Positions 88 through 9,798 of a stretch of 21,127 nucleotides of DNA are shown one piece after another (position 1 is the first letter of the stretch; the number at the start of each line of letters is the position of its first letter). This stretch comes from a virus: positions 1 through 21,127 of the IMG/VR virus record IMGVR_UViG_3300002460_000195; one strand, given 5' to 3'. Under the pieces are notes generated by a model that worked only from the letters and a program-made list of their open reading frames with translations, did not search any database and was not told where the DNA came from. A program made the position numbers and the translations under genes.

Positions 88-561
88 ATGCTGAACAATC
101 ATCCGTGGCGCAACGGCGTTATCATCGCCGCGCTGTTTTTCTTCCTGGTGCTGGCCATAAACGCCCTCACCTCCATTGCCAAGGGCGCCGAACCAGCCGT
201 GCCGTGGCCCGGTAACGAGGCCGTCGCTGGCGAGTACCGTGTAAATAGCCTGGAACCCGCCTCGTTGCTCGAATATTATGTTCTTTCGGCCCAAGTTTTC
301 GGGTATATTGTTTTTCCCGTTGCCCCCGATGCGGCTGTTACCGCGACCACCGAATGCAAAGCGCGTTTTGGCGCTGTTTCGCAAGCAGTTGCTGGCTATA
401 TGCAAGCCGATGGCCGCAGTGGTTGGATTTGCACGGCGTTCCCAACCGACGAAGCCGCCCACGAAACGGCGAACTATTTGTCCATTGTTCTCGGCGTTCC
501 CGTTCGATTCGATCACCGCGAGGGAGCGCTTTTGGTTTTCAAATTCGGCGCCTCCATATGA
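88..561 (+). CDS. small membrane-anchored or secreted protein, unknown function
   Basis: The 157-residue product starts with a short charged segment, then a hydrophobic stretch at about residues 11-28 and an AKGAEP segment that could be a signal-peptide cleavage region or the end of a membrane anchor. The rest is a soluble domain of mixed composition with cysteines in TTECKARF and GWICTAF. I do not recognise the family. The start is supported by AGGAAG seven bases upstream (81-86 region). The TGA stop overlaps the ATG of the ATPase gene (ATGA at 558-561), so the two are probably translationally coupled. An inner-membrane or periplasmic location is inferred from the N-terminus only. Confidence 0.65.
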   Translation: MLNNHPWRNGVIIAALFFFLVLAINALTSIAKGAEPAVPWPGNEAVAGEYRVNSLEPASLLEYYVLSAQVFGYIVFPVAPDAAVTATTECKARFGAVSQAVAGYMQADGRSGWICTAFPTDEAAHETANYLSIVLGVPVRFDHREGALLVFKFGASI

Positions 562-1448
562 CAGTCATCATCGAAACCACCGCCATGCCACCCAGTGGTG
601 AAACGTTCCTCATCGTCGGCTACTCGGGCAGCGGCAAAACGACCCTCGGCTTAACTCTGCCCAAGCCGGCGTTGTTCATTTTCTTCGACCCCTCCGGCGC
701 CGGAGGGGTACGTGGATTCAGGGGTGTTTCGTATGTGGAGTTTCTTTCCGACGAAACCGGCATCATGCCCGTTGGCGGCATTTCGTCTAAGCGCAAGGAC
801 GGCGCCGGAACCCGGGCGCCGTCACTCCCGAGCGAAATCAAGTTCAGCCCCAAAACCTACCTCAATTTCATTGCGTGGTGGAACGAAATGGCAAAAAGTC
901 GAGCCCTGCTCAACTTCGCCAGCATCGTTCTAGACTCGACCTCGTTCCTGGAAGCCGCGATTTACGACTGGGTTATGACTGAACGCGGGCTGTGGGGCAA
1001 TGAGCCAGGAACCGGCGAGTACATGCAGTTCCGCGATAACGTGATGATGGTCGCCCGGAACGTCACGGCCATCCGCCGGCACGGTGTTCATGTGATGTTC
1101 ACAACCCACATCCGCGACAAGACCGATCAGGCTGGAAACGTCGTCGGCCGGGTGCTCAAACTCTATGGCTCAAGCCGCGAAGATCTTCCTGGCGTGTTTG
1201 GGAATCTCTTCGTTGCGGAGTTCGTTCGGGGCCGGGGAGTGGGAGACGCGGTAACGGGTGCGCGTTACCTCCTGCGCACCCAACCCGACTCAGACCTTCG
1301 GCTCGGTAAAACGTCGCAAAAGCGCTTCGCCTTGCCCCACGAAATCGACGTGACGGTGACAGACTGGGATCGGCCCGAAGCGGGCGGGCTTGGAAAGCTC
1401 ATTGCCGACATTCAAAACAACGCGCTTGAAGTAGCGAAGGACGAATAA
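558..1448 (+). CDS. Sak4/AAA_24-like phage recombination ATPase
   Basis: The 296-residue product has a Walker A motif GYSGSGKTT at residues 21-29, a Walker B-type strand IVLDS at 123-127 and an MFTTH strand at 180-184. This is the layout of the RecA-like phage NTP-binding proteins (AAA_24/Sak4 group), which act in single-strand annealing or strand-exchange recombination, usually with a phage single-strand-binding protein. The frame stays open upstream to 354, but that part overlaps the preceding gene in another frame; the ATG at 558 sits in an ATGA stop/start overlap and puts the Walker A close to the N-terminus as is usual. Residues 60-100 hold a charged, probably flexible insertion. An ATPase of this fold is clear; the exact recombination role is inferred from family and context. 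Confidence 0.85.
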   Translation: MTVIIETTAMPPSGETFLIVGYSGSGKTTLGLTLPKPALFIFFDPSGAGGVRGFRGVSYVEFLSDETGIMPVGGISSKRKDGAGTRAPSLPSEIKFSPKTYLNFIAWWNEMAKSRALLNFASIVLDSTSFLEAAIYDWVMTERGLWGNEPGTGEYMQFRDNVMMVARNVTAIRRHGVHVMFTTHIRDKTDQAGNVVGRVLKLYGSSREDLPGVFGNLFVAEFVRGRGVGDAVTGARYLLRTQPDSDLRLGKTSQKRFALPHEIDVTVTDWDRPEAGGLGKLIADIQNNALEVAKDE

Positions 1449-1520
1449 AGTCGGCCCGTCGGTTGGTCGAGCGCTTCATGGCGTTGTCGTCGATTGCCCG
1501 CCATTGCTTGAGGATCAGTC

Positions 1521-1826
1521 TTGGATCGCGATACACTGGAAATCCTCCGAATGCTCCGCGAATCGGCGCGTCGGGCTTCAATGGAGCCGCCAAGCCGAAA
1601 GCGCGAAGTTCGGGCCGAAATCGACGCCGCAATGGCGCACTTTGCCGGCCCGATAATGCAGCTCCCAAGTCAATCAGCCGTCGCCCGGGAAACCGTGCGG
1701 CCGAGGCGGTCGTTGGCTGGCGACGATAACTCACTACCCGATGAGCTCGACTTGGGAGTCTTGCCACTCTTGGTTCGCCACGAACGGGTGAAGTCAGCCA
1801 CCCAAGCCATGGACTCCAATGGATGA
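1521..1826 (+). CDS. small hypothetical protein (TTG start)
   Basis: A 101-residue frame begins with TTG at 1521, preceded by GAGGA at 1510-1514 with a six-base gap; an in-frame TGA at 1509-1511 rules out any earlier start. The N-terminus (DRDTLEILRMLRESARRAS) looks helical, followed by a basic stretch and a proline-containing, probably disordered C-terminal half. Its TGA overlaps the next ATG (ATGA at 1823-1826), the junction type used all through this operon, which is the best evidence that it is real. No family is recognised. The 72-base gap before it shows no clear signal. Confidence 0.6.
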   Translation: MDRDTLEILRMLRESARRASMEPPSRKREVRAEIDAAMAHFAGPIMQLPSQSAVARETVRPRRSLAGDDNSLPDELDLGVLPLLVRHERVKSATQAMDSNG

Positions 1827-2269
1827 GATCTTCCTTTATATCTTTGCCGGGTGGGGGGGCCTTTTTGTTGTGGGGGTTGCTCTTTATCTTCTGGCCTACC
1901 TTGCTCCTTGGGGGATCAGTGCTCGACGATCAGCGCGCCGCCATTCTCTCCGCAATCCGAGTCGTCGAAAGCTCTGACGGCCGGGATTGCCATCAAGGTC
2001 GCACGGGCGAGCTGACGTGCTATCAAATCAAGCCGGCCACGGCGCGGCTGGTAAAGTGCGACGCCGGGTGGACTGAAAGCGACGCCGCCGCCGCAAAGTG
2101 CGCCGGGCGCGTCCTTGACTTTGCGGCGAACTTTTGCTACCGTAAAGACATTTACGGCTTGCTTCGATTTTACAACCGAGGCAAGTGTATGCGGTTTGCA
2201 GTTCGACCGCAAGGCTATGAACTAAGCGTGGCTTGGCTTAGGCTGCGTTTTTTAATCGAGGCAAGATGA
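1823..2269 (+). CDS. membrane-anchored lytic transglycosylase-like (SLT fold) protein
   Basis: The 148-residue product has a hydrophobic signal or anchor segment at residues 13-31 followed by a compact domain whose motifs match the lysozyme-like SLT family in order: ILSAIRVVES with the expected catalytic Glu at 49, GELTCYQIKPATAR at 62-75 (SLT consensus G-LMQI-PATA), and FYNRG at 116-120 (consensus YNAG). Such enzymes cleave the peptidoglycan MurNAc-GlcNAc bond. Six cysteines (56, 66, 79, 93, 105, 122) suggest disulfides in the periplasm. The domain is short for the family, so this is a minimal version. It overlaps its neighbours at both ends by ATGA. It sits among early genes, away from the virion genes, so a lysis role (export with a held anchor) or a cell-wall remodelling role are both possible. 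The fold call rests on motif reading only. Confidence 0.6.
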   Translation: MRSSFISLPGGGAFLLWGLLFIFWPTLLLGGSVLDDQRAAILSAIRVVESSDGRDCHQGRTGELTCYQIKPATARLVKCDAGWTESDAAAAKCAGRVLDFAANFCYRKDIYGLLRFYNRGKCMRFAVRPQGYELSVAWLRLRFLIEAR

Positions 2270-2565
2270 AATACGAGATTTACGAAAAAGCACAGGCGCT
2301 CAAACCCCAGGAACCAACCGTTCGGCTTCGGCTGACGGCAGTCGGCAAAGAGGTTTTACTTTCGGTGGTTGATTCCGTCGGGCGCACCGTGATGGACGGG
2401 GCGCTAATTGTCTTTGAGCCCGATGGTTCGTTCTGCTTGCTGCCGGCAGTTGATCCGGGGCTTGGTTTGTTGCTGACCGAGTCTGGCAGGCTGGTTGAGA
2501 AACGTCCTGCGCCGCCCGCTGTGATCCCTGCCGCTGTGAACTCTGTTTTCCCCCTTGACATCTAA
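2266..2565 (+). CDS. small paralogous phage protein, copy A
   Basis: The 99-residue product shares a clear pattern with the products at 2615-2860 and 3464-3691: MKY-x-x-Y at the start, a charged strand (TVRLRLTAVG), a hydrophobic strand with VDSVGR, DGALIVFEPDG near the middle, then a conserved LGL-L-x-SGRL end. The alternating hydrophobic pattern suggests an all-beta fold of about 75 residues; copy A adds a proline-rich tail. The ribosome site GAGGCAA lies just before the ATG, and the stop of the preceding gene overlaps the start. I know no family for it. Three copies within 1.4 kb point to local duplication and divergence. Confidence 0.7.
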   Translation: MKYEIYEKAQALKPQEPTVRLRLTAVGKEVLLSVVDSVGRTVMDGALIVFEPDGSFCLLPAVDPGLGLLLTESGRLVEKRPAPPAVIPAAVNSVFPLDI

Positions 2566-2583
2566 CACTCATCGGGTTAAGAT
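2555..2583 (+). promoter_or_regulatory. sigma70-type promoter before paralogue B
   Basis: A perfect -35 box TTGACA at 2555-2560 is followed by a 17-base spacer and the -10-like TAAGAT at 2578-2583 (4 of 6 consensus bases). The -35 box lies inside the last codons of copy A, and the start of copy B is 32 bases after the -10. It would give the genes from 2615 onward, and perhaps the RNA elements further on, their own transcript made by host RNA polymerase. Spacing and -35 quality are good; activity is not shown. Confidence 0.5.
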
Positions 2584-2614
2584 TAATTTGTCGGTACACT
2601 CCAACGGAGGCAAA

Positions 2615-2860
2615 ATGAAATATCGAGTCTATCAGCCCACCGCCGCACCCCCTGAGCCGACTGTTTGGTTTAAACTCACTCAGGGAGGGGGGGTGGATCG
2701 CGTTATTCTTGAGGCCGTGGACGAAAATGGGGAAGCCGTAGACCGGGGCGTCCTTCTCATCCTCGCGCCCGGAGAGCCCATGATTCTGCCGTCGAGTGTC
2801 AATCCGACTCTCGGGCTGAATCTCACGAAAAGTGGACGGTTGGCGATATCAAACACCTAA
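2615..2860 (+). CDS. small paralogous phage protein, copy B
   Basis: The 81-residue product starts at the ATG at 2615, chosen because GGAGGCAAA lies directly before it and because this start lines up with copies A and C (MKYRVY versus MKYEIY and MKLLVY). Shared features are PEPTVWFKL, a VDENGEAVDRG turn, LLILAPGE and the SVNPTLGLNLTKSGRL end. It matches copy A through the NPTLGL/DPGLGL block and copy C through VDRGVL. Predicted compact beta protein of unknown role; no membrane segment or catalytic motif is visible. It lies downstream of the promoter at 2555-2583. Confidence 0.72.
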   Translation: MKYRVYQPTAAPPEPTVWFKLTQGGGVDRVILEAVDENGEAVDRGVLLILAPGEPMILPSSVNPTLGLNLTKSGRLAISNT

Positions 2861-2887
2861 TCAAACCCAAATCAAGGAAATTCACAA

Positions 2888-3358
2888 ATGGCCAAGAACA
2901 CATCCTCAATCGAACGGATCGACCTGTTGTACGAGCAAGGCCCCCCTGAAAGCCTGTCAGTCAACACGTTCTATCATTTCATGGTTCGCGGGCCGGCCAA
3001 GCGAGGCGAGGTTGAATGGGACGATGCCACAACGGGCGCCCACGTCGTTGCTCCGGTTCTGAATTTCACAGCCGTCGCGTTCGACGAAGGCTACAAAAAG
3101 CCGCTCTCGAACAAAGACCCGATCCGCGAAACGGTCTTTCTGCCGGACAAGGCGCGCATGGACGAAGATCAACTCGTTCGCGCCCGGCAAGACCTCAAGC
3201 GCGTCCTTCGTGCCCTTAACATTCCAATTTCGACGAAAAGCGAAATCAGTGTGCTCGACTTCGACGGAGTCAAGTTCACCGCCAAAACTCGGCTCTTTGT
3301 GAACAAGAAAACCGGCGTCGAGCGGATAACCATTTCGTGGCCGAAATTCACGGAGTAA
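2888..3358 (+). CDS. hypothetical phage protein, possibly DNA-binding
   Basis: The 156-residue product starts at an ATG preceded by AAGGAAA. It has an N-terminal half with beta-strand character (FYHFMVRGPAKRGEVEW), a helix at about residues 104-122 (DEDQLVRARQDLKRVLRAL), and a C-terminal beta segment (FDGVKFTAKTRLFVNKKTG). This layout, and the presence of a Sak4-like ATPase upstream, would be compatible with a phage single-strand-binding or accessory protein of the DUF669 type, but the resemblance is weak and I would not name it. It separates copies B and C of the small paralogous family. The product contains no cysteine. Confidence 0.7.
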   Translation: MAKNTSSIERIDLLYEQGPPESLSVNTFYHFMVRGPAKRGEVEWDDATTGAHVVAPVLNFTAVAFDEGYKKPLSNKDPIRETVFLPDKARMDEDQLVRARQDLKRVLRALNIPISTKSEISVLDFDGVKFTAKTRLFVNKKTGVERITISWPKFTE

Positions 3359-3365
3359 CAAATGC

Positions 3366-3429
3366 GCGTCCGGGGGAACGCTGACTGGCGTGAGAGTGTA
3401 TCATTCGCTGGCTCCTATCCCCCGGACGC
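3366..3429 (+). promoter_or_regulatory. strong stem structure in the leader of paralogue C
   Basis: Bases 3366-3377 (GCGTCCGGGGGA) and 3418-3429 (TCCCCCGGACGC) form a perfect 12-bp stem. A second short hairpin, ACGC at 3378-3381 with GCGT at 3388-3391, would stack directly on it. The element lies in the gap between the stop at 3358 and the GGAGG ribosome site at 3453-3457. It is not followed by a run of T on either strand, so it does not look like a terminator. It could be a leader element, an RNA processing site or a protein-binding hairpin. Confidence 0.5.
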
Positions 3430-3463
3430 CACCCCGTTTCGCTCAACCCATCGGAGGTTTCAG

Positions 3464-3691
3464 ATGAAACTCTTGGTTTACGGAGAAGGCGAGTCAGACC
3501 AAGCTCGCTTGCGCCTGGTTCGAGCGGGTGATTTTATCCGGGTGGTAGTAGTCAATCAGGAAGGATACACGGTTGACCGTGGAGTCTTGGTTCAGTTTCG
3601 ACCAGATGGGACAATGGGTCGTCTGTCTGGTGTCGGTGGGAACCTTGGTTTCCGACTTGATTCTGAAGGAAAAATCAAGTTGGAGGATTAA
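3464..3691 (+). CDS. small paralogous phage protein, copy C
   Basis: The 75-residue product starts at the ATG at 3464 with GGAGG at 3453-3457 seven bases upstream. The frame is open upstream to 3362, but that part covers the stem at 3366-3429 and has no ribosome site. It is the shortest copy: MKLLVYGEG, ARLRLVRAGD, VVVVNQEGYTVDRGVL, FRPDGTM and NLGFRLDSEGKI line up with copies A and B over their whole length. It stops 9 bases before the large structured element at 3701, so transcription of this gene would run into that RNA. Confidence 0.7.
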   Translation: MKLLVYGEGESDQARLRLVRAGDFIRVVVVNQEGYTVDRGVLVQFRPDGTMGRLSGVGGNLGFRLDSEGKIKLED

Positions 3692-3700
3692 GTGAAGTCC

Positions 3701-3904
3701 TCGGGTAAAGCCGCCTGAGCAGGGTAGACAGCGCGGTCTGGTCACGCGCAGCAGCCGGAAGTTGCGCCCGGTTGCGGTGCCAAAGAGGACAGAAGGCTGG
3801 TACACGCTAAGCCGGCAAAACTGTCCCACCGAAAGCGCTAGTCTTGGTAAAGGACGCTTCCCCAGGACACTAGCTGTCTATCCTCCTGAGGTGGCTTTAC
3901 TCGA
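3701..3904 (+). ncRNA. candidate structured RNA 1 (multi-branched, 204 nt)
   Basis: The ends, 3701-3732 and 3873-3904, pair over 32 positions with only two mismatches and three G-U pairs. Inside are: GCGCG 3731-3735 with CGCGC 3745-3749; AGCCGG 3753-3758 with CCGGTT 3768-3773; CGGTG 3775-3779 with CACCG 3827-3831, which encloses GGACAG 3787-3792 with CTGTCC 3821-3826 and GCTGG 3796-3800 with CCGGC 3812-3816; and CTAGT plus CTTGG (3838-3847) with CCAGG plus ACTAG (3862-3873). That is a closed five-helix junction occupying almost the whole gap between two genes. I see no convincing reading frame on the + strand here. It fits no RNA class I can name: it lacks the RNase P, tmRNA and hammerhead core sequences. 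The G-U pairs argue for function as RNA rather than as a DNA palindrome. No own promoter is obvious; it may be cut from the 2590-onward transcript. Confidence 0.6.
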
Positions 3905-3943
3905 TCGGCGGTGTGAAACGATTAACCAATGAAGGTGCCCCCG

Positions 3944-4585
3944 ATGCTTTCCTACCCTAAAATCGACAGCTTGTTTTTACGCGACCTGGATAATAACAAC
4001 AGGTCGTTCCTGGTCGGCAAGTGGGCGCGTGAGGAATTCGAGTATCTGAAAAACCTCCCGTGGAGCTGGACTGAAAAAATCGACGGCATGAATATCCGTG
4101 TAATTTGGGATGGGCGCCAGGTGCATTTTCGGGGCCGAAACGACGGAACCCAAATTCACACGCGACTTGGCGATCACCTTAGGGCTAAGTTCCTCACTAG
4201 CAAGTTGGCGGAGGTTTTCAGTGAGCCGGCGACGCTTTATGGCGAGGGCTACGGCGATAGAATTCAGAAGCTCGGCGCTCAATACCTCCCTTCGCAGGAG
4301 TTCATATTGTTCGATGTTTTTTGCAAGAACTGGCTGCCGCGAGAAGCTGTCACCGAGATCGCAGAAAAGTTGGATTTGCCTGTAGTTCCGGTGGTTGGTG
4401 TTGGCCCGTTGACCATGGCAATTGATTTCGCGGCGGCGGGGTTTTTCTCTCAGGTTGCCGTAACCCCGAAAACGCTCGCTGAGGGAATAGTGATGCGCCC
4501 GCCGATCGAGCTGCAAGATCGCCACGGAGCTCGAATTATAACAAAAGCCAAATTCAAGGATTTTCTCCGCCAGAAGAAACTGTAA
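3944..4585 (+). CDS. RNA ligase (Rnl2/PF09414-type nucleotidyltransferase), short form
   Basis: The 213-residue product shows the covalent nucleotidyltransferase motifs in order: motif I EKIDG at 44-48 with the AMP-accepting Lys45, FRGRND at 62-67, motif III LYGEGYG at 98-104, motif IIIa FILFDVF at 120-126, motif IV EGIVMRPP at 180-187 and motif V ITKAKFKDF at 199-207. Such enzymes seal RNA ends using ATP through enzyme-AMP and RNA-adenylate steps. T4 Rnl2 is 334 residues, so the C-terminal accessory domain is missing here and the protein is nearly the bare catalytic domain. The start at 3944 is preferred because AAGGTG lies six bases upstream; an in-frame ATG at 3929 would add five residues but has no ribosome site. 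It has candidate structured RNAs on both sides, which suggests, without proving, that they are its substrates. Confidence 0.85.
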   Translation: MLSYPKIDSLFLRDLDNNNRSFLVGKWAREEFEYLKNLPWSWTEKIDGMNIRVIWDGRQVHFRGRNDGTQIHTRLGDHLRAKFLTSKLAEVFSEPATLYGEGYGDRIQKLGAQYLPSQEFILFDVFCKNWLPREAVTEIAEKLDLPVVPVVGVGPLTMAIDFAAAGFFSQVAVTPKTLAEGIVMRPPIELQDRHGARIITKAKFKDFLRQKKL

Positions 4586-4753
4586 CTCCCGGCCAGCGGC
4601 GGATTGTAGGCTCCGCTGGTGGTGTGCGTGGCAACCTCCTGGGCAAGAGGCTAAACTGCCCAATCGTCCCTGTCTCCACGCCGGCGGAGAGGTGGTCTCG
4701 CTCAGGCGAGCCGGAGGTTCGATTCCTCCCAGGGGCACTAGGAAAACCGGGGG
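4586..4753 (+). ncRNA. candidate structured RNA 2, with tRNA-like 3' part
   Basis: Directly after the RNA ligase stop, CTCCCGG at 4586-4592 can pair with CCGGGGG at 4747-4753 and close the element. Inside are CCAGCGG 4593-4599 with CCGCTGG 4613-4619, GCGTGG 4626-4631 with CCACGC 4676-4681 enclosing TGGGCA 4640-4645 with TGCCCA 4657-4662, CTCGC 4697-4701 with GCGAG 4706-4710 (loop TCAG), and a tRNA-type T-arm at 4713-4729. The 4586-5106 stretch holds no protein gene that I can support: its short frames have no good ribosome sites and cross these stems. A further 5-bp hairpin lies at 4758-4772. The pairing is read by eye and has not been tested by folding energy or covariation. Confidence 0.45.
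4666..4737 (+). other. tRNA-like segment: T-arm and acceptor stem (degenerate tRNA or attP-like)
   Basis: GGAGG-TTCGATT-CCTCC at 4713-4729 is a standard T-arm with a canonical T-loop. It is followed by CAGGGGC and A at 4730-4737, a seven-base acceptor strand and discriminator base. GTCCCTG at 4666-4672 can pair with that acceptor strand over seven positions (one G-U). Between them TCTCC 4673-4677 with GGAGA 4686-4690 resembles a D-arm, but no proper anticodon arm can be built: the CTCGC/GCGAG hairpin has only a 4-6 base loop around TCAG. CCA is not encoded (CTA instead). Possible readings are a decayed tRNA gene, a tRNA-mimic at the end of RNA 2, or a copy of a host tRNA 3' end serving as a phage attachment core. 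Confidence 0.35.
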
Positions 4754-4776
4754 CGAAGCATGTAGCTCATGCACGG

Positions 4777-4816
4777 TGTATACGATCCTTGACTTTTGTG
4801 AATGTATACGATCCTT
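4777..4816 (+). repeat. two direct repeats TGTATACGATCCTT
   Basis: The 14-base sequence TGTATACGATCCTT occurs at 4777-4790 and again at 4803-4816, a spacing of 26 bases. Each copy contains the palindrome GTATAC. They sit between RNA 2 and RNA 3 in a relatively AT-rich gap, where TTGACT at 4789-4794 could be a weak -35 box. A repeated regulator site or a pair of phage-specific promoter elements for RNA 3 and downstream genes are both possible; no clear sigma70 -10 box is correctly spaced. Confidence 0.5.
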
Positions 4817-4834
4817 ATTGAATCGACATTGAAG

Positions 4835-4995
4835 GAGACTCACAACGCGGCGTGGATGGACACGCATGTCGTCATGGTCGGGGCGGCGACCTCGCCAGTC
4901 GCTAGAGACGTTGTGCTTAGGAGTGGGAATTGGCGTCCCACACGCGGCACAGAAAAGCCTGGAGCTGGTACTCAAGCCCAGTCGTTGTGAATCTC
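4835..4995 (+). ncRNA. candidate structured RNA 3 (161 nt)
   Basis: GAGACTCACAACG at 4835-4847 pairs with CGTTGTGAATCTC at 4983-4995 in 12 of 13 positions. Inside are GCGTG 4850-4854 with CACGC 4861-4865, GCGAC 4886-4890 with GTCGC 4898-4902, TGTGC 4912-4916 with GCACA 4947-4951 enclosing GTGGGA 4923-4928 with TCCCAC 4936-4941, and CTGG 4959-4962 with CCAG 4978-4981. A second CGTTGTG at 4909-4915 could pair with the same 5' CACAACG, so two exclusive folds are possible. The ordered motif ACAGAA, GCTGGTAC, AAGCC occurs here (4949-4978) and in RNA 1 (3789-3813). The following 4996-5095 has no gene or clear signal. Less strongly paired than RNA 1, hence lower confidence. Confidence 0.4.
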
Positions 4996-5095
4996 TCTGA
5001 ATGCCCAAGGATGGGGATAGTGCTCATGGAAGAGCCAGGCTGAGGGGCGGGGCGGTTTTACTTCCCGCATCGTCTCGCTCCAAGGCTTCTTGTTT

Positions 5096-5138
5096 GGAGT
5101 TTCCTGATGGCCTCGATTAGGAGTTTCCTGATGGCCTC
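5096..5138 (+). repeat. 24-bp tandem duplication of a ribosome site and start codon
   Basis: The 19-base GGAGTTTCCTGATGGCCTC is present at 5096-5114 and 5120-5138, a period of 24 bases. Each copy carries a GGAG ribosome site, a seven-base spacer and an ATG (5107 and 5131). As the period is eight codons, the two starts are in the same frame and give products differing by eight residues. This looks like a recent slippage duplication that left two working initiation sites. Confidence 0.85.
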
Positions 5139-5415
5139 TTTCGACGAATCCTACGAAGTCCGCCTTTCGCAGCAGCTAAAAGCTGAGTGGTATCGGCGCG
5201 TTCCGAACGGAGCTGGGAGCGAATTGGTTCGTCTGTTTATGACAAAAACAGTCGAACTACTAGCTGCGAATCGACACGCGCTTGTGTCGCTGCTGTACGG
5301 AAACTTTGACATCGTTCCAACCCAAGCCCCGAAAAAGGGGAAGGAATCCAATCAACCCGCGATGCAAGAATCACTATTTCCCGACCCCTCTCCTCCTTTC
5401 ACACTTCTCGGCTAG
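5107..5415 (+). CDS. small protein, possible ribbon-helix-helix DNA-binding fold
   Basis: The product is 102 residues from the ATG at 5107 or 94 from the equally good ATG at 5131; both have GGAG seven bases upstream because the start region is duplicated. From residue 9 the order is a short strand (SYEVRLSQQLK), helix (AEWYRRV), turn (PNGAGS) and helix (ELVRLFMTKTVELLAAN), which resembles the ribbon-helix-helix proteins of the CopG/Arc type, whose strand pairs bind the major groove as dimers. The C-terminal third is proline-rich and ends QESLFPDPSPPFTLLG, probably flexible. Its place just before the polymerase would suit a regulator. The fold call is a pattern impression only. Confidence 0.65.
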   Translation: MASIRSFLMASFDESYEVRLSQQLKAEWYRRVPNGAGSELVRLFMTKTVELLAANRHALVSLLYGNFDIVPTQAPKKGKESNQPAMQESLFPDPSPPFTLLG

Positions 5416-5444
5416 TTCATAAGCAGCCCCCCTGAGGCAACCGA

Positions 5445-8237
5445 GTGAAGATTAAACACGTTCCACCGATTGGCCAGCTAACAGCACGATTGGCGATTTG
5501 CGGCGAGGCGCCGGGCCGGGAGGAAGAAGCTCAAGGCATTCCATTCGTCCCGTGGGCGCCGAGCGGTGCAAAGCTGATGCAGCTCGCCCACAACGCGGGC
5601 CTCGTTCGGGCCGACATGTATTTAACCAACGTAATCAAAACCCGCCCGCCCAACAACAACATTTCGACATTTTTCTCCGAAGGGAGCTTTACAGCCCTCG
5701 GCGAACGCTATCGGCGCGAGCTGCTCGACGAACTCCAAGCAGTTGAGTCGCCAGTTGTCCTGGCCGTTGGCTACGTCGCGATGGCGGCCCTGACCACCGA
5801 ACGTCGTCCGATTCACCTCATGCGCGGGTCGCCATTAATCAACCAACAGCTCAACAAAATCATCATCCCAACCCTGCACCCGGCCGGCATCATGCGGTCG
5901 GGTCAGCATATGCAGTATCACCTAATCGAGTGGGATATTCGGAACGCCCTGGCTCTCGCAGCCGAGGGGGGAATTAGCGCCCTGCCGTCACCGAATTACG
6001 TCCTCGATCCGAGCTTTGAAACCGCCATGGCCTGGCTGGCCGAGTTGCCCAGCCTGCCTGAATTCGCCTTTGATATTGAAACCAGCAGTAACGAGCTGAC
6101 TCACATTTCGTTCACTCGTGCCCTGGACGACGTGATTTCAATTCCCCTCGGAAAATTCAACCCGGCTCAGCGGAAATCCATTCTCAACGGCATTCAGACT
6201 GCTTTGGCGGCCCCGGGGCCGCGCAAGATCACCCAAAACGGCAACTACGACACGTTCTTTCTCAAGTGGCATTGCAACATCGAAACCGATCTTTCCACCC
6301 TTGACGACGCCATGGTGGCGAACAGCGTCCTATTTCCGCAACTTGCGCCAGCAAGCGCGCCGGACGCGGCAACCGGAAAATCACTTGCAATGTTGGCCTC
6401 CTTGTGGGGCCGAGAGGTTTATTACAAAGACGACGGCGAAATCACCAAGTTTGACGGTGATTCGCTCGGCTATCAGCTCTACAATGCCAAAGACTCTGCC
6501 GTTGTTCATCGTTGCTGGCGACGCCTAAAAACCTTCCTCGACGCCGATCCGGCATTCCGCTACACTTACGACTTCACGATGGCCCGATTGCCGGCGATTC
6601 AAGCGATGCAAACTAATGGCTTTAGGGTTGACCGGCGCGGGCTCGCCCTGGCCCGCGCGGCGATTCTCGCCGAACTGACCGAGTTGAGCGCCGAACTAAA
6701 CGCCCTTGCTCAACCTCGATTGCGGCTTCAACTCGATGCCGAGCTCGACACCCTTCGCGACCTAGAAGTCAAGCGAAAAGCGGCTCGCGCCGAGGGCGCG
6801 GAAACAAAGCCGCTAACCAAGCGGATTACCGCACTCCGAACGTACCTTAGGCAATGGAGTGCGACCGGTTCCGACGGCAAGCCTGAACTCGGCGCGTGGG
6901 AATTGCCGGTGAATTCGTCCGCCAAGCTCTGTACGTATTTTTACGATTGGCTCGGTTTGCCTGAATACACTGCCGTGCGAAAAAACTCAGCCGGCGTGTC
7001 TCGGACACGGTCTGTCAACGATGTTGCGTTGACAAAGTTTCTCCGCCCGACCGAAGATCGCCCAGCCGTTGCCGAGGCGGCCCCAATCCAGAAAATCCGC
7101 GAGCGCGGGAAGCTGATTTCAACGTACATCGACATCGACTACATGCCCAACACCGGCCGGTATCAGGCGTCGTTCAACCTGCGCGGAACCTGGACGGGGC
7201 GCTACAGCAGCAGCCAGTTGTTTTTCCGGTATGGCTCGAATCAACAGAATATTCCGCCCCGGATTCGGCAGTATTACCTCCCAGACGAAGCCACCCCCTC
7301 CCGCCTACCGTTCTTCGTCGAGTACGACGGCAAACAGGCCGAGTGGGTTGTCGTTGCGCACGAAGCCAACGAGCCCCGAATGATTGAGGTCATTCAGACC
7401 CGCCGAGATCCCCACGTTGCCACCGCACAATACATGTGGGGTGTGAGTGAGGCTGCGATTGTTGCCGAAGCCAAGGCCGTTGGCAAATCGACATCGCCCG
7501 AAGTAATTGCCGCAGCTCGCGCTGCGCTTTCCAGCCGATTCCCGGAGCTCGCAGCGCCTGACCTTCCTCGCAACATGACACTTAGGCAGGGTGGCAAAAA
7601 GGACAACCACGCTGGAAACTATCGCGAAGGCCCAGAAACTTATGCGCAAGTCAATGGCGTCACTCTTCGCGAAGCTCGACTGCGGTTGTCAAGATACTCG
7701 GAGGTCGTTTATCCCGGCCTCTTGACATGGTGGGAAAACACAGACTTTCGTGTTCGGCACCAAGGCTTTCTCATCAATCCGCTCGGTCGGAAACTGCCGA
7801 TTCTCGGCCCGACCCACGGAAAGGGCGCCGAACACACGTTTAAGCAGGGCTATGCGGCAATTCCGCAATCGGTTGTTCACGACATTGCGATGATTGGCCA
7901 ATTGAGGGTTTTGGCCATGCAGCCAACTGTGTTGTTGTTGTCTGACAACCACGACAGCATCTTGGTTCAGCATTTCCTTGATCCCCGAGTTGGCCCCGAA
8001 GCCTGTTCGGAAAAGCTGCTAAGCGAAGTTAGCGCCGTCGTTTCGGCCTTGACGGTTCCGTTGTCGTCTGTCGCTGGGGAGTATGTTATTGAAATCGAGC
8101 CGAAGCTGGGACTTAATTGGGCCGACGCAAATGAGGAAAATCCGCGTGGCCTGCGCGAACTTGAGCTGACCCCCGACGGTGCATCGGCGGCAGTTTCGTG
8201 GCTTTTGGAGAACACCGCGAGGATAACCTGCGAATGA
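5445..8237 (+). CDS. DNA polymerase, family A, with N-terminal uracil-DNA-glycosylase-like domain
   Basis: The 930-residue product replicates the phage genome. Residues 15-150 match family 4 UDG motifs: GEAPGREEE (20-28), YLTNVIKTRPPNN (59-71) and TLHPAG (143-148); the cysteine of the usual KCRPP motif is threonine and no CxxC is present, so an iron-sulfur cluster is unlikely. The proofreading exonuclease has FDIET (Asp210, Glu212), NGNYD (Asp269) and YNAKD (Asp350), all conserved. The polymerase part shows TGRYSS (584-589), QNIP (601-604), motif A YDGKQAEW with Asp628, O-helix R714-K718-H722-Y726 and motif C HDS at 836-838. His722 occupies the E. coli Phe762 position and Ser838 replaces the Glu of HDE. 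The GTG start has GAGG seven bases upstream. A UDG-like domain on a phage polymerase is known from the SPO1 type. Confidence 0.93.
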   Translation: MKIKHVPPIGQLTARLAICGEAPGREEEAQGIPFVPWAPSGAKLMQLAHNAGLVRADMYLTNVIKTRPPNNNISTFFSEGSFTALGERYRRELLDELQAVESPVVLAVGYVAMAALTTERRPIHLMRGSPLINQQLNKIIIPTLHPAGIMRSGQHMQYHLIEWDIRNALALAAEGGISALPSPNYVLDPSFETAMAWLAELPSLPEFAFDIETSSNELTHISFTRALDDVISIPLGKFNPAQRKSILNGIQTALAAPGPRKITQNGNYDTFFLKWHCNIETDLSTLDDAMVANSVLFPQLAPASAPDAATGKSLAMLASLWGREVYYKDDGEITKFDGDSLGYQLYNAKDSAVVHRCWRRLKTFLDADPAFRYTYDFTMARLPAIQAMQTNGFRVDRRGLALARAAILAELTELSAELNALAQPRLRLQLDAELDTLRDLEVKRKAARAEGAETKPLTKRITALRTYLRQWSATGSDGKPELGAWELPVNSSAKLCTYFYDWLGLPEYTAVRKNSAGVSRTRSVNDVALTKFLRPTEDRPAVAEAAPIQKIRERGKLISTYIDIDYMPNTGRYQASFNLRGTWTGRYSSSQLFFRYGSNQQNIPPRIRQYYLPDEATPSRLPFFVEYDGKQAEWVVVAHEANEPRMIEVIQTRRDPHVATAQYMWGVSEAAIVAEAKAVGKSTSPEVIAAARAALSSRFPELAAPDLPRNMTLRQGGKKDNHAGNYREGPETYAQVNGVTLREARLRLSRYSEVVYPGLLTWWENTDFRVRHQGFLINPLGRKLPILGPTHGKGAEHTFKQGYAAIPQSVVHDIAMIGQLRVLAMQPTVLLLSDNHDSILVQHFLDPRVGPEACSEKLLSEVSAVVSALTVPLSSVAGEYVIEIEPKLGLNWADANEENPRGLRELELTPDGASAAVSWLLENTARITCE

Positions 8238-8263
8238 CTGAAGATAACCTGCGAATGACTGGG
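8222..8263 (+). repeat. 21-bp tandem duplication spanning the polymerase stop
   Basis: GATAACCTGCGAATGACTG occurs at 8222-8240 and 8243-8261 with a 21-base period. The first copy holds the last codons of the polymerase (Ile-Thr-Cys-Glu and TGA) and the overlapping ATG at 8234; the second repeats the ATG at 8255 in the same frame. So the polymerase end and the downstream start were copied together. Confidence 0.85.
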
Positions 8264-8326
8264 GAAGAAGCACTGAATGCGGTCGCACTGGCGTTGAGTG
8301 GGGTGAACTTCGAGGAGATAAAATGA
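8234..8326 (+). CDS. 30-residue micro-ORF between polymerase and pentapeptide protein
   Basis: The frame MTEDNLRMTGEEALNAVALA continues to LSGVNFEEIK and a TGA at 8324-8326. Both ends use ATGA overlaps, with the polymerase stop at 8235-8237 and with the next start at 8323, so it is fully embedded in the coupled operon. The N-terminal seven residues are duplicated (MTEDNLR, MTGEEAL) because of the 21-bp repeat. It is acidic and would form one amphipathic helix; its start resembles MTEDEAREEI in the next protein. It may make a real small protein or only carry ribosomes across the gap by translational coupling. Confidence 0.5.
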   Translation: MTEDNLRMTGEEALNAVALALSGVNFEEIK

Positions 8327-8733
8327 GGCCGAGGATGAGAATGACCGAGGACGAAGCTCGGGAAGAGATCACGCTTGCACGGCGCGGAAAGCGAGAAGCC
8401 CGGCTGTGCGACGCTAATTTGCAGGGGGCTGAGCTGTTCGGAACCGACTTGTCTGGAACCAACCTATACGGAGCCATTCTATTCCAAGCCAACCTACACA
8501 AGGTCGCAGGAATCATTGAAATTGGCGGGCTGGACTGGTCGCTCTATCTCATTCGAGGAGACGACGGGCCACGCATCAAAGGTGGCATCTGTCAGTGGTT
8601 TGAAACTCGAACTGAGGCTGAGGCTCACTGGATGAATCATTCCGACCAAAAACACGGCGCCCTGATGCTGGCAAAACTCGATGCTGCTTGGTTCATTGCC
8701 ACGCAGCAGGGCTGGCCGGGGACGAAAGAATGA
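8323..8733 (+). CDS. pentapeptide-repeat protein with C-terminal phage domain
   Basis: The 136-residue product has about six pentapeptide-type repeats at residues 27-57 (for example ANLQG, AELFG, TDLSG, TNLYG, AILFQ, ANLHK), which normally fold into a right-handed quadrilateral beta-helix. The C-terminal part, from GLDWSLYLIRGDDGPRIKGG to the end, resembles domains often attached to short pentapeptide stretches in phage proteins, but no enzymatic motif is visible. Long pentapeptide proteins can mimic DNA and inhibit gyrase; this run is too short to claim that. It starts in an ATGA overlap; a later in-frame ATG (MTEDEA) is possible. Its stop overlaps the next gene. Confidence 0.75.
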   Translation: MRPRMRMTEDEAREEITLARRGKREARLCDANLQGAELFGTDLSGTNLYGAILFQANLHKVAGIIEIGGLDWSLYLIRGDDGPRIKGGICQWFETRTEAEAHWMNHSDQKHGALMLAKLDAAWFIATQQGWPGTKE

Positions 8734-9161
8734 CAGCGCAAACGCAGGAACAACCAATGACGAAATCAACGAAATCGACGAAATCACCACCCGCCGAGCC
8801 ACGCGAAGCGGCGTATATTTCTCACCTCTTGACTGGCCTCAAGCACGACGCCACCAAAAATCGCCTCGATCTGGTGCCGCCGGAGCTTGTTCTGGCGGTT
8901 GGCGCCGTAATGACCTATGGCGCGGAGAAATACGACGATCACAATTGGGCTGGCGGAATGCGGTGGAGTCGCTTGATTGCGGCCGCGCTGCGACATTTGA
9001 TGGAATTCAACGCCGGGGTTGACAGTGACTCCGAATCAGGCTTGCCGCACCTTGCTCACGCGGCAACGTGTATTGGCTTTTTGATCGCATACGCGAAGAA
9101 CGGCTGGGGCGAGGACGACCGCCGTGACAGGGTTCTGCCTTTCTCGCTGGGGAAGAAATGA
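8730..9161 (+). CDS. dATP/dGTP diphosphohydrolase-like protein (DUF5664/PF18909, MazZ type)
   Basis: The 143-residue product has a poorly ordered, Lys/Ser/Thr-rich N-terminus (about 20 residues) and then a domain with family features: KHDATKNRLDLVPPELV, MTYGAEKYDDHNW, AALRHLMEF and SGLPHLAHAATCIGFLIAY. The acidic and histidine residues are the expected metal-binding helix positions. The S-2L phage relative MazZ splits dGTP or dATP to the monophosphate and pyrophosphate, shaping the dNTP pool in phages with 2-aminoadenine DNA; most relatives occur in phages without that modification. The ATG at 8730 overlaps the preceding stop. It is coupled to a deoxyribosyltransferase-like gene, pointing to nucleotide-pool control. 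Confidence 0.8.
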   Translation: MTAQTQEQPMTKSTKSTKSPPAEPREAAYISHLLTGLKHDATKNRLDLVPPELVLAVGAVMTYGAEKYDDHNWAGGMRWSRLIAAALRHLMEFNAGVDSDSESGLPHLAHAATCIGFLIAYAKNGWGEDDRRDRVLPFSLGKK

Positions 9162-9598
9162 TGAAAAAACTATCGACTGTGATATATTCCGAGCCGACAA
9201 ATTCATCGTTTGGGGTCTATTTGGCAGCGCCGTTTCAGCGGAAAGATGAAATCGCGGAGGTCGCTCGGGAGCTGCGGGGCTTGAAATATTCAGTCGTCTC
9301 AACGTGGCATGATCGGGACGAGCCCGCCGATTACACGTTTCTGGAAGCTAGGCGGTGGGCTAGGGAAGAACTCTTTGAGATCGAGCAGGCTTACCTTCTT
9401 GTTGTGTTCACTGGCGGAATTGGCCCAATGACGGGCGGAAAGGACGTGGAGCTCGGATACGCCATGGGGAAAAACATCCGAACATGCCGGGTTGGCCCCC
9501 GAGTTAACATTTTTCATTCCTTAGACCACTACATGATGTTTACGTCGCCGCAGGAGTTTGTCCAAGCAATGAATCCCAAATCATGGGGGGTCAAGTGA
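9158..9598 (+). CDS. nucleoside 2-deoxyribosyltransferase-like protein
   Basis: The 146-residue product fits the Nuc_deoxyrib_tr fold: an N-terminal strand VYLAAPF (about residues 20-26), helix, STWHDRDE, then a helix and strand EIEQAYLLVVFTGG and the key segment TGGKDVELGYAMGKNIRT with the expected catalytic Glu of the GxxxExGxA motif, and a terminal GPRVNIFHSL. Family members swap bases between deoxyribonucleosides or hydrolyse deoxynucleoside 5'-monophosphates. GGGGAAG lies before the ATG, and the start overlaps the preceding stop. Base exchange versus hydrolase activity cannot be told from sequence. Confidence 0.78.
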   Translation: MMKKLSTVIYSEPTNSSFGVYLAAPFQRKDEIAEVARELRGLKYSVVSTWHDRDEPADYTFLEARRWAREELFEIEQAYLLVVFTGGIGPMTGGKDVELGYAMGKNIRTCRVGPRVNIFHSLDHYMMFTSPQEFVQAMNPKSWGVK

Positions 9599-9798
9599 AA
9601 CCAACTCACAAAATCGGAGACGACTGGGCGCTTTGGGCACTAGTTGACAAGCGAACGCAGCGCATTTTGCGCGACGACTACGGAATGCCGTTGGTTGGGC
9701 CAACGAAAAAACCGCTACTCGAAATAATGACGTTCGGGGGGCTGGCTGATCGGGACGCGGTCGAGTTCAAGCAAGTAAAAATCGTCCCTCGCGAATGA
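9595..9798 (+). CDS. small hypothetical protein, last gene of the + strand operon
   Basis: The 67-residue product (from KPTHKIGDDWALWALVDKRT to VKIVPRE) begins at GTG 9595, which overlaps the previous TGA as GTGA and has a GGGGGG run six bases upstream; an ATG at 9583 in the same frame would add four residues but lacks a ribosome site. The sequence alternates short strands and turns and shows no known motif. It ends 10 bases before the stop of the opposing late operon. A weak hairpin (TCAGC 9803-9807, GCTGA 9814-9818) lies at the junction, without a T-run, so I do not call a terminator. Confidence 0.65.
   Translation: MKPTHKIGDDWALWALVDKRTQRILRDDYGMPLVGPTKKPLLEIMTFGGLADRDAVEFKQVKIVPRE

Follow-up and report, generated by a model that had tools for sequence, protein, structure and literature searches.

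A phage sequence carries, side by side, a minimal Rnl2-type RNA ligase gene, a structured RNA candidate without a counterpart in Rfam (element A), and, directly after the ligase gene, a predicted tRNA-like cloverleaf whose top half is that of a tRNA-Arg (the core of element B). The explanation we favor, though with no better than even confidence, is that an ordinary mobile ligase of the tRNA-repair type lies beside a remodeled tRNA, both belonging to an accessory block where structured RNA, probably processed by RNases, punctuates the rightward transcript. The results presented here carry the identity of the ligase, the reality of element A, the prediction of the cloverleaf with its tRNA-Arg top half, and the enrichment of tRNA genes beside other ligases of the family.

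The accessory block

The window is a linear virus record of 21,127 bp (IMG/VR record IMGVR_UViG_3300002460_000195, positions 1-21,127). Its likely genes from 88 to 9798 all lie on the + strand and encode a Sak4-like ATPase, small unknown proteins, the RNA ligase, and a UDG-DNA polymerase A fusion; the remaining genes, virion proteins among them, are on the - strand. Distant annotated relatives (40-44 kb phages) have a common plan in which a recombination/Sak4-like/helicase gene is followed by small genes, the polymerase, and then convergent virion genes; the ligase and RNA elements, located here between the Sak4-like and DNA polymerase genes, are thus a variable accessory block. No close relatives of the phage emerged when exact peptides of its polymerase and of a virion protein were scanned for, and the best IMG/VR polymerases found by profile search are only 23-34% identical, with no ligase in their fetched flanks.

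Three small paralogous proteins (2266-2562, 2615-2857, and 3464-3691; mutual identity 30-44%) have no match in Pfam, PHROGs, or the fetched loci, and the gene for the third is placed between a hairpin, element D, and element A. Farther downstream, the DNA polymerase A at 5445-8234 carries a fused N-terminal uracil-DNA-glycosylase domain, the N-terminal part also being aligned in some distant relatives, and a tandem 24-bp duplication at 5093-5138 (GGAGTTTCCTGATGGCCTC twice) spans the ribosome-binding site and start codon of the gene at 5107, creating two in-frame starts. Codon scores are 0.15 or more for nearly all genes; open frames within the element regions score -0.24 to +0.09, so that these regions (element A included) are non-coding, and the original prediction had placed the elements accurately. 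A 343-aa antisense frame (3977-5008) was rejected as a gene: its homology is only a shadow of the ligase, and its 4586-5008 portion codes at -0.24.

The RNA ligase

The ligase gene (3944-4585, + strand) encodes 213 aa; the ATG at 3944, with GAAGGTG 8 nt upstream, is more likely to be the start than the first ATG of the frame at 3929. Its identity as a short Rnl2-type RNA ligase, surmised earlier from the sequence, is borne out in four ways: i) the protein matches Pfam RNA_ligase (1.9e-18) and PHROG 548; ii) motifs I, III, IIIa, IV, and V are present as KIDG (with the KxDG lysine), EGYG, ILFDV, EGIVMRP, and KAKFKDF, and the core motif residues (KIDG, EGYG, EGIVMRP, and KAK among them) are conserved across 26 homologues; iii) an AlphaFold model built from the 26-sequence alignment has a mean pLDDT of 91, and among solved structures it comes closest to those of T4 Rnl2, Naegleria Rnl, and the trypanosome editing ligase (REL); and iv) the top 18 PDB matches of the model all fall in this T4 Rnl2/REL/Naegleria Rnl group, none of them being a DNA ligase or Rnl1. 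The protein belongs to the T4 Rnl2 fold group and consists of the catalytic domain only. It shares the nucleotidyl-transferase fold and signature motifs with T4 Rnl2 and its relatives (PDB 2hvr, 1s68; Naegleria Rnl 6vt4), its best structural matches, but T4 Rnl2 also has a C-terminal domain, and identity is about 16%.

The enzyme is widely distributed. We found 435 relatives in IMG/VR, and in INPHARED the same enzyme occurs at about 31-44% identity in unclassified podoviruses, crAss-like phages, and Streptomyces phages, in a plain gene context in all five of the INPHARED loci viewed. As part of the evenly weighted explanation given above, we regard it as an ordinary, horizontally mobile, catalytic-domain-only Rnl2-type enzyme. 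Phage ligases repair nicked tRNA (PMC10264068), and the likely task of this one is to seal structured RNAs that have been broken, a tRNA nicked at its anticodon for example. No polynucleotide kinase partner is found among the window genes scanned, so that this 21-kb fragment does not encode a complete repair pathway.

The tRNA-like cloverleaf

Element B (4586-4753) had been described as a multi-helix element. Taken whole, it folds no better than shuffled sequence (z -0.95; 37/200 shuffles fold as well), and its 5′ part (4586-4665, + strand), consisting of a hairpin CCAGCGG/CCGCTGG (4593-4599/4613-4619) and a weak second hairpin, is not above chance (z +0.13). Within it, however, lies a structure that the original prediction did not name, a predicted tRNA-Arg-like cloverleaf (4666-4740, + strand) composed of an acceptor arm (4666-4672/4730-4736), a D-like arm (4673-4690), a UCAG-loop hairpin (4694-4712) at the anticodon position, and a T arm (4713-4729), followed by A73 and then CTA rather than CCA. 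The 7-bp acceptor and the 5-bp T arm with its TTCRANY-type loop stand at canonical tRNA spacing without a mismatch, a combination that turns up a single time in the window and was produced by 3 of 100 shuffles; the 5-bp D-like arm begins directly after the acceptor, and the anticodon arm with its 7-nt loop is missing, a CTCGC-TCAG-GCGAG hairpin taking its place.

The Rfam tRNA model aligns with the cloverleaf from end to end, scoring 20.9 bits where the cut-off is 29, and ARAGORN rejects it both with and without introns, the former disposing of a split or intron-bearing tRNA. Pairing probability is about 0.85-1 when up to 500 nt of context are folded; with 1081 nt, other pairings compete with the acceptor arm (probability 0.05). 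Processing signals of the mascRNA type likewise place a tRNA-like fold in a transcript; the mascRNA Rfam model scores 12.8 bits against the cloverleaf, which is not significant.

The resemblance to tRNA-Arg is close. A 25-mer of the cloverleaf is identical in 12 GTDB genomes, all of Thermotogota or candidate-phylum (Patescibacteria) types, where the genes bearing it are tRNA-Arg as read by eye (anticodons CCT, TCT, and similar), and one of these genes (L105) also shares the GTCCCTG 5′ strand. Like tRNA-Arg (CCU/UCU) genes, the cloverleaf has the acceptor GTCCCTG/CAGGGGC, the T arm GGAGG-TTCGATT-CCTCC, and a spacer of exactly 40 nt between acceptor and T arm; unlike them, it has a different spacer sequence in which the linker nucleotides, D arm, and anticodon arm are all replaced, has no anticodon, and ends in ACTA instead of ACCA. 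We read it, with the same even confidence, as a putative remodeled tRNA-Arg which, having no anticodon, could not decode.

Two other origins deserve consideration. The first, a decaying and functionless phage tRNA-Arg pseudogene left from a former ligase-tRNA pair, would explain the tRNA score below cut-off, the missing CCA and the missing anticodon arm, and intact tRNAs do adjoin the ligase in relatives (see below); yet the acceptor and T arms are free of mismatches at exactly canonical spacing, and the two lower arms each form a perfect hairpin of another kind, which point-mutation decay would not produce, so that we think this origin rather unlikely. The second is an attP copied from a host tRNA gene. 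Integrases often act at tRNA 3′ halves, and 26 nt of the cloverleaf are identical to tRNA-Arg 3′ ends; but the 5′ acceptor strand is there too, at tRNA spacing, no integrase is found among the window proteins scanned (on a 21-kb fragment of the genome), a 29-nt match occurs in none of 84,980 species genomes, and the Thermotogota and candidate-phylum genomes that share the 25-mer are unlikely hosts. We judge an attP very improbable.

Element A and the other elements

The original prediction spoke of a cluster of structured elements around the ligase gene. With shuffled controls this stands for A (3701-3904) and for the hairpin at 3366-3429, both of which beat their shuffles; it is not convincing for B or for C (4835-4995).

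Element A (3697-3907, + strand) is a multi-branched RNA structure in which 3701-3732 pairs with 3873-3904 as an imperfect closing helix of 32 bp, and inner hairpins are predicted at about 3745-3779, 3786-3825, and 3840-3867. The region 3690-3912 has a folding energy of -110.8 kcal/mol (z -6.4 on the + strand), which none of 200 shuffles equals, and its closing helix is the best imperfect helix in the window, scoring 26.9; the next one scores 15.4, and shuffling the whole window 200 times yields no more than 21.0. The structure of element A is thus real, well beyond chance, and A is a strong orphan RNA candidate absent from Rfam: no covariance model matches (window at E up to 1; A alone at E up to 10, with nothing meaningful), the GOLLD, ROOL, RNase P, tmRNA, 6S, and ribozyme families included. 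No promoter consensus above shuffles is found near A. The pattern of its arms was tried and discarded, its two matches being copies of one proline-rich coding stretch.

A long inverted repeat is also what a DNA element would show, and A might instead be an origin of replication or, with its 32-bp arms as terminal inverted repeats, a MITE-like insertion, a reading to which the lack of an Rfam match and of sequence relatives (none for A, C, or D in the collections searched) lends itself. Against it, i) the - strand folds far more poorly than the + strand (z -2.3 versus -6.4); ii) the arms pair through 27 Watson-Crick and 3 G-U pairs with 2 mismatches and no A-C, as expected under selection on a + strand RNA, three positions being few; iii) three inner hairpins are predicted; and iv) the flanking sequence shows no target duplication. 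We consider a DNA element unlikely, and continue to treat A as an RNA. GOLLD and ROOL, structured phage RNAs of unknown function, are often found near tRNA islands (PMC12286853); A, at about 210 nt and without an Rfam match, is far smaller.

Element D (3362-3432, + strand) is an intercistronic hairpin with a perfect 12-bp outer stem, an internal loop, and an inner stem. Its local fold is strong (z -4.3 to -4.8), and a helix scan with shuffles indicates that stems scoring like the 12-bp stem are expected somewhere in 21 kb. The intercistronic RNase III sites of phage T7 are likewise hairpins between genes. Element C (4833-4995, + strand) is a multi-helix candidate whose support is weak, since its z of -2.1 (4/200 shuffles fold as well) is near the window background (mean -0.43, sd 1.26); the score of its closing helix, near 4835-4847/4983-4995, is 12.7, within chance.

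Two smaller features touch on these elements. Just upstream of C, two exact copies of TGTATACGATCCTT stand 26 bp apart as a direct repeat (4777-4816, + strand), the single such site in the window, which holds no further copies; the pair is possibly a promoter or operator. The string ACAGAA-GCTGGTAC-AAGCC is common to A (3789-3813) and C (4949-4978) in the same order. It was rejected as a family signature: its 19 IMG/VR matches all lie within open frames of at least 92 codons (17 of them more than 145), include no doubles, and are about as many as an estimate of chance would give.

tRNA genes beside related ligases

We examined 80 loci among the 435 IMG/VR relatives of the ligase, and counted tRNAs on the 71 that are non-redundant. 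At 6 of these 71 loci a tRNA gene is found no more than 120 bp from the ligase, against 0.49 expected; none of 2000 random placements reached as many as 6. These tRNAs are mostly directly downstream, the side on which the cloverleaf sits here. The minimal phage RNA ligases of IMG/VR and INPHARED (MW202615, Streptomyces phages, and crAss-like cr116_1 among them) are of the same family and size as ours at about 31-51% identity, but differ in their surroundings, since sequence resembling A, B, C, or D is found at none of the 80 loci. The association is thus of the ligase with tRNA, and not with elements A-D. The proposal that ligase and elements form one system is accordingly not supported, related phages keeping the ligase without them; what survives is the narrower tie of a genuine ligase to RNA, in that it adjoins non-coding structured RNA and belongs to a tRNA-enriched family, which fits RNA or tRNA repair.

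Nor do related ligases have structured surroundings in general. Fold scores beside them are only slightly below those within the ligase gene, and the seven strongest structured windows, when viewed, proved to be fully or nearly open coding frames, save for a terminator-type hairpin at one locus (L074). Two of the loci hold other features: an Rfam DUF3800-V RNA (L080, 2682-2777), which follows the ligase and a neighboring tRNA-Asp at a distance of about 730 nt, and, in phage isolate ctKR88 (L204, 4716-6121), 1.4 kb without annotated genes downstream of the ligase and without an Rfam match.

A dedicated system could still be imagined in which the ligase circularises or repairs A and/or the tRNA-like RNA, and these act as decoys, guides, or guards against host nucleases. 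The elements do physically adjoin the ligase, A is clearly structured, and the RNA directly after the ligase gene has no cleavable anticodon loop; an enlarged anticodon loop is also seen in a tRNA that directly follows a related ligase gene (L056, 4126-4204) and is called tRNA-?(gatg) by ARAGORN, and nuclease resistance has been proposed for phage tRNAs with mutated anticodon loops (PMC10264068). But the elements are missing from all 80 related loci examined, annotated phages carry the ligase in a plain gene context, and the remaining ligase-adjacent tRNAs examined have ordinary seven-base anticodon loops. Such a system is improbable in our judgment.

A possible history of the transcript

From the arrangement of genes and elements we infer how the RNAs may be transcribed, processed, and used by an ordinary ligase beside a remodeled tRNA. 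The accessory block would be transcribed rightward, probably as an early unit, into a single message bearing all the RNA elements on the same + transcript; the long closing helix of A would offer host RNase III a good double-stranded substrate, so that A might be released as a stable small RNA of the phage, leaving the ligase message with a free 5′ end; a simpler and lesser intercistronic processing site of the same kind would be provided by the hairpin at 3362-3432; RNase P might cut the cloverleaf (4666-4740) at its 5′ end; and the ligase would act as an ordinary repair enzyme. Perhaps comparable are the small stable RNAs (species 1 and 2) of the T4 tRNA cluster, non-tRNA RNAs that accompany phage tRNAs in a phage with tRNA-repair ligases.

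Phage tRNAs have been proposed to resist or evade anticodon nucleases through mutated anticodon loops (PMC10264068), and this makes it attractive, by analogy, to think of the tRNA-like RNA, if it is expressed, as a nuclease-proof decoy or stand-in, but with no anticodon it could not decode. The fuller version, an RNA-repair cassette in which a minimal ligase acts together with its own tRNA-Arg-derived RNA, the cleavable anticodon arm replaced, and with an excised or circularised 210-nt RNA, both serving as decoys or guards against host anticodon nucleases, strikes us as more improbable still than a dedicated system more loosely conceived.

The chief interest that remains is in one strong orphan RNA, element A, and one remodeled tRNA. 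If expressed, an anticodon-less tRNA-like RNA would be an uncommon way of countering nucleases whose target is the anticodon loop. For the family as a whole, the ligase beside a tRNA is a recurrent phage layout, quantified here, which provides a set of ligase-tRNA loci available for testing and points to tRNA repair as the job of these enzymes.
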